A stretch of 64,000 bases of DNA from an uncultured Bacteroides sp. (GTDB taxonomy: Bacteria; Bacteroidota; Bacteroidia; Bacteroidales; Bacteroidaceae). Shown here piece after piece: positions 30,067 to 33,448 of the stretch. The position numbers and the translations under genes are program-made. How positions within the stretch are numbered: the stretch's first letter is position 1; each line of letters starts with the position of its first letter. A model generated the notes under the pieces. It had not been told where the DNA came from, ran no database searches, and saw only the letters and a list, made by a program, of their open reading frames with translations. The stretch lies in assembly GCA_947074295.1 (NCBI GenBank), contig CAMTPC010000003.1, positions 1 to 64,000 on the forward strand, written 5' to 3'.

Positions 30067-30125
30067 TCGGATATCTCCATGTCTGCCTTGCTGGCAGACA
30101 TGGATGTAAATATAAAGTTAATGAA

Positions 30126-30157
30126 GAGAGCGCCCGCTTGTTGGGTGCTCTCTTTTT
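30126..30157 (+). terminator. Rho-independent terminator after asnS
   Basis: GAGAGCGCCC (30126-30135) pairs with GGGTGCTCTC (30143-30152), then TTTTT; preceded by a second 12-bp hairpin at 30076-30104. Confidence 0.8.
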
Positions 30158-30235
30158 CAATTGCTAAATCTCTTTAACCCTTATGTCATTTAGTGCTAAG
30201 TATCAATAGGATAAAAGAAAAAAAAACTGAAATAG

Positions 30236-30266
30236 TTTGTCGTTTCGTGCGAAATGAGTAATTTTG
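30236..30266 (+). promoter_or_regulatory. Bacteroidetes-type promoter of the ribosomal protein operon
   Basis: TTTG (30236-30239), 19-bp spacing, TAATTTTG (30259-30266), matching the -33/-7 consensus TTTG / TAnnTTTG. Confidence 0.75.
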
Positions 30267-30280
30267 CAAGCCGATTATTA

Positions 30281-30345
30281 TCTGAATAAGATAAGAGATT
30301 CATTCAGAGTGGGTTAGTATTCCTTTGTCCGGGGAGGCCTGAGCC
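30281..30345 (+). promoter_or_regulatory. Structured 5' leader of rplM (candidate L13 autoregulatory leader)
   Basis: Stem TCTGAAT (30281-30287)/ATTCAGA (30302-30308), followed by an imperfect stem GGGTTAG (30311-30317)/CTGAGCC (30339-30345). Confidence 0.5.
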
Positions 30346-30392
30346 ATGATGAATAAAAAATTTTAGTAGTAACAATAAAAACAAAATTAAGA

Positions 30393-31382: not shown

Positions 31383-32219
31383 ATGTCAAGAACAAATTTT
31401 GATACATTATTGGAAGCCGGATGTCACTTCGGACACCTTAAAAGAAAGTGGAATCCTGCAATGGCTCCTTATATCTTCATGGAACGTAATGGTATTCATA
31501 TCATCGACCTCCATAAGACCGTTGCTAAAATTGACGAAGCTGCTGAAGCTTTGAAGCAAATCGCTAAATCGGGTAAAAAAATCCTTTTTGTTGCTACTAA
31601 AAAACAAGCGAAACAAGTGGTAGCCGAAAAAGCGCAATCGGTAAACATGCCTTATGTTATCGAACGCTGGCCAGGTGGTATGTTGACTAACTTCCCTACA
31701 ATCCGTAAAGCGGTGAAGAAGATGGCAACTATCGACAAACTGACTAATGACGGTACTTACTCAAACTTGTCAAAACGCGAAGTCCTTCAGATCTCTCGTC
31801 AACGTGCTAAGTTGGACAAGACTTTGGGCTCAATCGCTGACCTAACTCGTCTTCCTTCGGCTCTTTTCGTGGTTGACGTGATGAAAGAACACATCGCTGT
31901 TCGCGAAGCTAACCGTCTAGGTATACCTGTATTCGCTATCGTTGATACAAACTCTGATCCTTCAAATATTGATTTTGTAATCCCAGCTAATGACGATGCT
32001 ACAAAATCTATCGAAGTAATCCTTGACGCTTGTTGCGCTGCTATGACTGAAGGTCTAGAAGAACGCAAAGCTGAAAAGATCGATATGGAGGCTGCAGGCG
32101 AAGCTTCTGCTACTAAAGGCAAGAAGAGATCTGCAAAAGCTCGTATGGACAAATCAGACGAGGAAGCTATCAACGCTGCTAAAGCAGCTGCCTTCATCAA
32201 AGAAGACGACGAAGCTTAA
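31383..32219 (+). CDS. rpsB: 30S ribosomal protein S2
   Basis: LLEAGCHFGHLKRKWNPAMAPYIFMERNGIHIIDL; RWPGGMLTNFPTIRKAVKKM. Confidence 0.97.
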   Translation: MSRTNFDTLLEAGCHFGHLKRKWNPAMAPYIFMERNGIHIIDLHKTVAKIDEAAEALKQIAKSGKKILFVATKKQAKQVVAEKAQSVNMPYVIERWPGGMLTNFPTIRKAVKKMATIDKLTNDGTYSNLSKREVLQISRQRAKLDKTLGSIADLTRLPSALFVVDVMKEHIAVREANRLGIPVFAIVDTNSDPSNIDFVIPANDDATKSIEVILDACCAAMTEGLEERKAEKIDMEAAGEASATKGKKRSAKARMDKSDEEAINAAKAAAFIKEDDEA

Positions 32220-32231
32220 TCAAGCATATAT

Positions 32232-32340
32232 TTAAGTAGTCAAGTAATAGTTAAGTAGTCGCGACTGTGCGAATACACTTGTTGTAGCCAATAAACTTGC
32301 TTGACTACTTAACTATTATATATTGGCTACTTATTTTTTT
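32232..32340 (+). promoter_or_regulatory. Complex alternative-stem region between rpsB and tsf (candidate attenuator)
   Basis: 32245-32260 is the perfect complement of 32303-32318; 32232-32244 is the perfect complement of 32300-32312; GTAGCCAATA (32284-32293) is the complement of TATTGGCTAC (32321-32330), followed by TTATTTTTTT. Confidence 0.6.
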
Positions 32341-32369
32341 ATATATAAACGAATTAAAAATAGAATACT

Positions 32370-33362
32370 ATGGCTGTAACAATGGCTGATATTACCAAAC
32401 TCCGCAAATTGACTGGAGCAGGTATGATGGATTGCAAGAATGCATTGAACGATGCAGAAGGTGATTTTGACAAAGCAGTGAAGATTATTCGCGAAAAAGG
32501 ACAAGCAGTTGCTGCTAAACGTTCTGACCGTGAAGCTTCTGAAGGTTGTGTTTTGGTAAAAGTTGATGGCGGCTTTGGCGCTGTTATCGCTTTGAAATGC
32601 GAAACTGACTTCGTTGCTAAGAATGAGGATTTCGTGAAATTGACTCAAGATATTTTGGATGCTGCCGTAGCTAACAGATGTAAGACAATCGAAGAGGTTA
32701 ACGCTCTTCCATTAGGTGACATCACTGTAGCGCAAGCTGTAATCGATAGAAGTGGTATCACTGGCGAGAAAATGGAGCTTGATGGCTACACAACTCTTGA
32801 AGGTGCTTCTGTAGCTTCATACAACCACCAAAACAAAAACTTCCTTTGTACAATGGTAGCATTGAACGAAGTGGTTGACGCTCATGTTGGTCGTGACATC
32901 GCTATGCAAGTAGCTGCGATGAACCCAGTAGCTGTAAACGAAGCAGGTGTTCCTGATGCTGTGAAAGAAGCTGAAATGCAAGTAGCTATCGATAAGACTA
33001 AATTGGAGCAAATCCAAAAAGCTGTTGAAGTGGCTCTGAAGAAAGCTGGTTTCAATCTTTACATCGCTGAAAACGAAGAACACCTTAATGAAGGTATCAT
33101 GAAGGGTTCTATCACTGAAGAGCAAGCTGAAGAAATTCGCCAATTGAAGCAAAAAGTTGCTGACGAAAAAGCTGCTAACATGCCAGAAGCTATGATCGAA
33201 AAGATCGCTCAAGGTCGTCTTAACAAGTTCTATAAAGAATCTTGCTTGTTGAACCAAGAGTTTATCCAAGATGGTAGCAAGACTGTTGCTGAATACTTGA
33301 AATCAATCAACAAGGATTTGACTGTAACAGGTTTCTGCCGTTTGACATTGCGTGCTGAATAA
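32370..33362 (+). CDS. tsf: Elongation factor Ts
   Basis: ITKLRKLTGAGMMDCKNALNDAEGDFDKAVKIIREKGQ; LKCETDFVAKNEDF. Confidence 0.97.
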   Translation: MAVTMADITKLRKLTGAGMMDCKNALNDAEGDFDKAVKIIREKGQAVAAKRSDREASEGCVLVKVDGGFGAVIALKCETDFVAKNEDFVKLTQDILDAAVANRCKTIEEVNALPLGDITVAQAVIDRSGITGEKMELDGYTTLEGASVASYNHQNKNFLCTMVALNEVVDAHVGRDIAMQVAAMNPVAVNEAGVPDAVKEAEMQVAIDKTKLEQIQKAVEVALKKAGFNLYIAENEEHLNEGIMKGSITEEQAEEIRQLKQKVADEKAANMPEAMIEKIAQGRLNKFYKESCLLNQEFIQDGSKTVAEYLKSINKDLTVTGFCRLTLRAE

Positions 33363-33395
33363 TCTTATCTTACGATAGATTGAAATAATATAAAG

Positions 33396-33426
33396 AAAGC
33401 CGTCAGAACTAAATCTGACGGCTTTT
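33396..33426 (+). terminator. Rho-independent terminator after tsf
   Basis: AAAGCCGTCAGA-actaaa-TCTGACGGCTTT then TT. Confidence 0.85.
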
Positions 33427-33448
33427 TCTGTTGCTAGATAGAGCTAGA

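Follow-up and report, generated by a model that had tools for sequence, protein, structure and literature searches.

The DNA analyzed here is a 64,000-nt window, taken from one contig of a draft Bacteroides genome (3.7 Mb, 88% complete), in which translated reading frames reveal the gene order rplM-rpsI-rpsB-tsf. The rpsB gene (31383-32219, + strand), encoding the 278-aa ribosomal protein S2, and the tsf gene (32370-33362, + strand), encoding the 330-aa elongation factor Ts (EF-Ts), are co-directional and separated by a spacer of 150 nt (32220-32369), from which we infer that they are co-transcribed. The one Bacteroides-type promoter motif (TTTG ... TAnnTTTG) found is upstream of rplM, at 30236-30266 (TTTG-N19-TAATTTTG), and is probably the operon promoter. 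Upstream of this motif, the asnS-rplM spacer (30067-30392) also displays two strong G+C-rich hairpins. From rplM to tsf, the rpsB-tsf spacer included, the window contains no TAnnTTTG motif. Moreover, when rpsB-tsf loci of Bacteroides and related genera were fetched via the tsf protein, 168 of 172 yielded a spacer, and just two of these 168 spacers contain the motif. Since there is no promoter motif from rplM to tsf, and since a promoter would hardly fit into the 26-55-nt spacers seen in 18 species, expression of tsf probably depends on read-through. When the spacer (32220-32369) was scanned with Rfam covariance models, there was no match at E ≤ 1, including to the S2/rpsB motif and other ribosomal leaders. 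The sole match of note, to STnc450 at 33388-33443 (- strand) and below threshold, is just an ordinary G+C-rich terminator hairpin 3' of tsf.

Most of the spacer is predicted to fold into one long structure. In folding predictions computed without proteins or kinetics, the minimum-energy structure is a single hairpin spanning 32233-32260 and 32303-32333 on the + strand, with small apical helices. Its energy of -39.6 kcal/mol is far beyond chance when compared with shuffled sequences (-20.5 ± 2.9 kcal/mol, z = -6.6), none of 200 shuffles reaching it. The hairpin consists of an outer stem of 11 bp, including one G-U, between 32233-32243 and 32323-32333, stacked on an inner stem of 17 bp between 32244-32260 and 32303-32319, which together form one continuous hairpin whose pairs have probabilities of 0.92-1.0 in the partition function. 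Directly 3' of the base of this hairpin is a run of seven T (32334-32340). The element thus has the hallmarks of an intrinsic terminator, that is, a stable hairpin ending at 32333 followed by a U-tract. However, the short G+C-rich stem that is usual, but not essential, in intrinsic terminators is absent, since the approximately 28 core base pairs are AU-rich, and a scan for short-stem terminators did not list the long hairpin. The remainder of the spacer is an AT-rich tsf leader (32341-32369, + strand), about as long as the entire spacer in species without a hairpin.

The arms of the hairpin are tandem repeats of approximately 8 nt, with AAGTAGTY as the unit, and the 5' arm (32232-32260) contains the direct repeats TTAAGTAGTC ... 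TTAAGTAGTC. The extended motif TTAAGTAGTY occurs three times in the 64 kb, against 0.3 expected, and all three occurrences are in this element. Because the arms share one unit, every direct copy is complementary to every inverted one, which gives rise to alternative pairings. These had been noticed in a previous sequence-only reading of the window, and all the segments that it quoted are indeed present: 32300-32312 pairs perfectly with 32232-32244 over 13 bp (16 bp with one G-U), 32303-32318 with 32245-32260 over 16 bp, and GTAGCCAATA (32284-32293) with TATTGGCTAC (32321-32330) over 10 bp, the latter being followed by TTATTTTTTT, while a palindrome, AGTCGCGACT, is found at 32257-32266. Although these stems are real, that reading missed the dominant fold, in which the outer stem makes the hairpin continuous. 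In the partition function, the 13-bp and 10-bp stems both have a pair probability of 0.000, and forcing them to form costs approximately 10 and 18 kcal/mol, respectively. In folds of the growing transcript, which are minimum-energy snapshots and not kinetics, the 5' outer arm pairs with the inner 3' arm first and with the outer 3' arm later, in 12 of 12 related elements. In such models, the two upstream pairings would be successive registers of one folding path, not two end states, with 32300-32312 as a transient partner. No antiterminator end state excluding the terminator was found in these folds, whose end state includes the terminator-like hairpin.

To place this hairpin in an evolutionary context, we compared 87 non-identical rpsB-tsf spacers, 86 of which come from the genus of the window, some from incomplete genomes. 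A hairpin is present in 69 spacers of 72-158 nt and missing from the other 18, of 26-55 nt. Using simple motifs, the hairpins were assigned to type A (AAGTAGTY units, as in the window), B (TTGAGAA units), C (AATGTGCCAATTTGC), D (AGTAGTY), E (GGTAAGAT) or to rarer types. The hairpin of B. faecis is of type C. Type D is probably related to type A through loci L149, L183, and L192, which have their apical sequence in common. The arms of these three hairpins differ, 5' and 3' sides alike being made of either AGTAGTT or AAGTAGTC units, as would be expected of arms that evolve in concert. In types A-E, the base of the hairpin begins a median of 8-9 nt 3' of the rpsB stop codon, and 37-47 nt remain before the tsf start codon. 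In 64 of the 69 hairpin-bearing spacers, the T-run 3' of the hairpin is longer than the A-run 5' of it, and the median length of the T-run is 6 in types A/D and C, 4 in B, and 3 in E. At same-genus loci, stems of at least 20 bp are present in 68 of 89 rpsB-tsf spacers versus 27 of 89 for the 135 nt upstream of rpsB. Stems in the rpsB-tsf spacer are also longer than those of hairpins after tsf (median 31 versus 18 bp), many of which are of the ordinary G+C-rich kind. A strictly conserved terminator at the end of the operon, as opposed to a changing one in the middle, is found in some species only (11 of 87 when a strict motif is applied).

Type A illustrates what is conserved within one family of hairpins. 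Ten of 160 genomes of the genus contain the pattern GTAGCCAA-N(2-22)-TTGACTACTTAAC, a single time each and invariably at rpsB-tsf. In an alignment of 11 distinct homologous spacers, 91.7% of the cells are paired for the long hairpin and 95.8% for its outer stem, and the core of the inner stem is invariant on its 3' side. The 13-bp alternative between 32232-32244 and 32300-32312 is nearly invariant as well (96.5% of cells paired), but trivially so because both 5' segments copy one repeat unit. By contrast, the 10-bp stem between 32284-32293 and 32321-32330 is not conserved, with 58.7% of cells paired versus 61.8% when the partner is slid by three columns. Its core is perfect solely in the window and one relative, making it specific to the clade of the window, and the palindrome AGTCGCGACT is not shared among the aligned spacers. 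In the apical part, GTAGCCAA (32284-32291, + strand) is retained in all 11 elements despite variable neighbors, with no conserved perfect partner. Covariation in this alignment is weak, 101 of 500 shuffles reaching the observed level, as there is hardly any variation in the arms. A conserved fold is better supported by the other types, in which double compensatory changes, counted without a shuffle control, were seen in 9 of 28 (type C), 8 of 26 (B), and 7 of 33 (D) base pairs versus 3 of 29 for type A. In relatives, it is the long hairpin that is kept with double changes, not the 10-bp stem put forward in the sequence-only reading.

The sequence of the hairpin is far less stable than its place. 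On a quick tree of S2 and EF-Ts, in which many inner branches are weakly supported, the distribution of types needs 20 changes, for a possible minimum of 8 and a mean of 53 when types are shuffled. Unrelated hairpins are found even where the flanking gene sequences are approximately 90-95% identical, as in L149 (type D) and L155 (type E), or L196 (type B) and L192 (type A). At the rpsB-tsf site, place and fold thus persist whereas the sequence has been repeatedly replaced. Such a position, kept while the sequence is exchanged, is expected if the fold and the U-tract are what matters. Intrinsic terminators usually change sequence rapidly, and replacement of the hairpin is therefore not odd per se but favors a terminator.

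We consider it reasonably probable (approximately 0.6) that the hairpin acts midway through the rplM-rpsI-rpsB-tsf operon as a leaky intrinsic terminator, best read as assembled from repeat hairpins of a kind also seen at other places in Bacteroides genomes. Once RNA polymerase has moved past rpsB, the arms, being made of repeats, would fold into one long AU-rich hairpin with its base abutting seven U. A fraction of the transcripts would stop at the U-run, generating an rpsB mRNA capped at its 3' end by a stable hairpin, and the remaining transcripts would read through into tsf, keeping EF-Ts below the level of S2. If tsf is essential, termination must be partial. We infer that termination occurs, that only a part of the transcripts is affected, and that the S2:EF-Ts ratio is set in this way, in line with the suggestion of the sequence-only reading that a terminator-like element between the two genes could set this ratio. 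The long hairpin followed by T7, the one-sided T-run, the compensatory changes, and the lack of a recognizable tsf promoter all point to such a terminator, as does, by analogy, a precedent in Staphylococcus aureus. The AU-rich stem, longer than in hairpins after tsf, and the 18 species without a hairpin argue against it, and, given the weak T-runs of types B and E, the function that the types share may be something other than termination.

In S. aureus, an intrinsic terminator between rpsB and tsf shows partial read-through by Northern blot, with an rpsB transcript of approximately 0.9 kb and a slightly weaker read-through transcript (PMC4608709). The likeness is a terminator hairpin at the same place, with a demonstrated function there and a putative one here. 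However, in S. aureus, tsf also has a predicted promoter of its own, and RNase Y cleavage occurs, whereas the spacer in the window has no recognizable promoter, and its hairpin is an extended AU-rich array of repeats. The S2 leader, or rpsB motif, is likewise a structured RNA element of the rpsB-tsf transcript, but it lies 5' of rpsB, where it is described as an operator for S2 (PMC2704228, citing Aseev et al. 2008), and the spacer in the window does not match it in Rfam. Internal terminators in ribosomal-protein operons of Methanococcus maripaludis, as reported in PMC10450193, similarly combine intra-operon termination with unequal expression, but that system is archaeal and unrelated.

The chief rival to a terminator is an mRNA-stabilizing or processing element, in which the hairpin stops 3' exonucleases after cleavage of the spacer, so that the rpsB portion of the message lasts longer than the tsf portion, with no termination involved. 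REP elements act as such stability elements in operons. This rival is favored by the poor T-runs of types B and E, and would fit with hairpins found directly after the rpsB stop codon in all types and with stems exceeding those after tsf. It would also fit with the distribution of hairpins of 24 bp or more, whatever their kind, in 400-kb samples analyzed with a simple ORF caller, where they occupy 19% of the spacers between co-directional genes, 50% of those between convergent genes, and 7% of those between divergent genes in genome G123 (22%, 28%, and 13% in G007), and thus tend to sit 3' of genes. Still, stability does not require the T-run to be so consistently one-sided as in types A, C, and D, and we regard this explanation as unlikely. 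The same two samples, together with pieces of the genome of the window, ruled out that repeat hairpins are confined to co-directional gene pairs, as selected copies had suggested, since long hairpins are commoner between convergent genes.

It is more doubtful that the hairpin is a functionless or selfish repeat, the spacer merely tolerating insertion of hairpins that multiply in Bacteroides genomes. Hairpins of 7-8-nt repeats are amplified in a species-specific manner (loci L206-L245 in G123, G118, G007, and G012), with few in several other Bacteroides. There are 162 AATGTGCC-type matches in G123 and 56 in G118, and 97 TTGARAA-type matches in G007 and 84 in G012. Hairpins of the type-A unit are also found at unrelated loci in some other Bacteroides. 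A multicopy nature, which according to the sequence-only reading would weaken its proposal, thus applies in part to other genomes but not to that of the window (88% complete), in which longer type-A patterns detected no further copies, the element being single-copy as assembled. However, genomes often carry at rpsB-tsf a type other than the one that they amplify (type A in G123, type C in G012 and G021), which indicates that this site is no random sample of the currently amplified family. Arms conserved between species whose spacers otherwise differ, double changes preserving pairing, and the strongly one-sided T-run also speak against mere tolerance. Like REP and REPIN palindromes of enterobacteria and pseudomonads, these are interspersed palindromic intergenic hairpins, but the arms in the window consist of 7-8-nt tandem repeats, and the element at rpsB-tsf is the only copy in its genome. 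The TAACTGA heptamers of Beggiatoaceae, cyanobacteria, and five Bacteroidetes are also intergenic 7-nt direct repeats, but they are mostly located just 5' of start codons and have been presented as direct repeats rather than as the inverted arms of hairpins (PMC4679880). Our search of the open literature for the repeat sequences themselves found no paper containing them.

Finally, a regulated attenuator with mutually exclusive folds, as proposed in the sequence-only reading, in which S2, EF-Ts, or ribosome traffic would choose between upstream pairing and terminator, is highly improbable: the upstream pairing kept in 11 homologues, the predicted switch of the 5' outer arm between 3' arms during transcription, and a stem base approximately 8-14 nt from the rpsB stop codon, presumably reachable by a terminating ribosome, would suit it, but that pairing is trivially kept and is an intermediate compatible with the final hairpin, the folds revealed no antiterminator end state, the proposed 10-bp terminator stem is not conserved, and the spacer matches no Rfam ribosomal-leader family. 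None of the present evidence requires a regulated switch.

Returning to the leaky terminator, it is conceivable, as a long shot, that the repeat build itself is the device, the multiple copies of one unit in each arm leading every hairpin through wrong-register pairings and strand exchange before the base adjacent to the U-tract closes. If true, register exchange would tune how frequently RNA polymerase escapes, which would account for repeat families replacing one another at rpsB-tsf, and a ribosome at the rpsB stop codon could modulate the outcome. Unequal protein output from one operon is still poorly predictable from sequence. Dozens of Bacteroides species offer a natural series, with a fixed site, many unrelated hairpins, and a hairpin-less version, in which hairpin and T-tract can be compared with the measured S2:EF-Ts ratio. 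The 7-8-nt repeat hairpins of Bacteroides would thereby gain a testable role at one translation operon.
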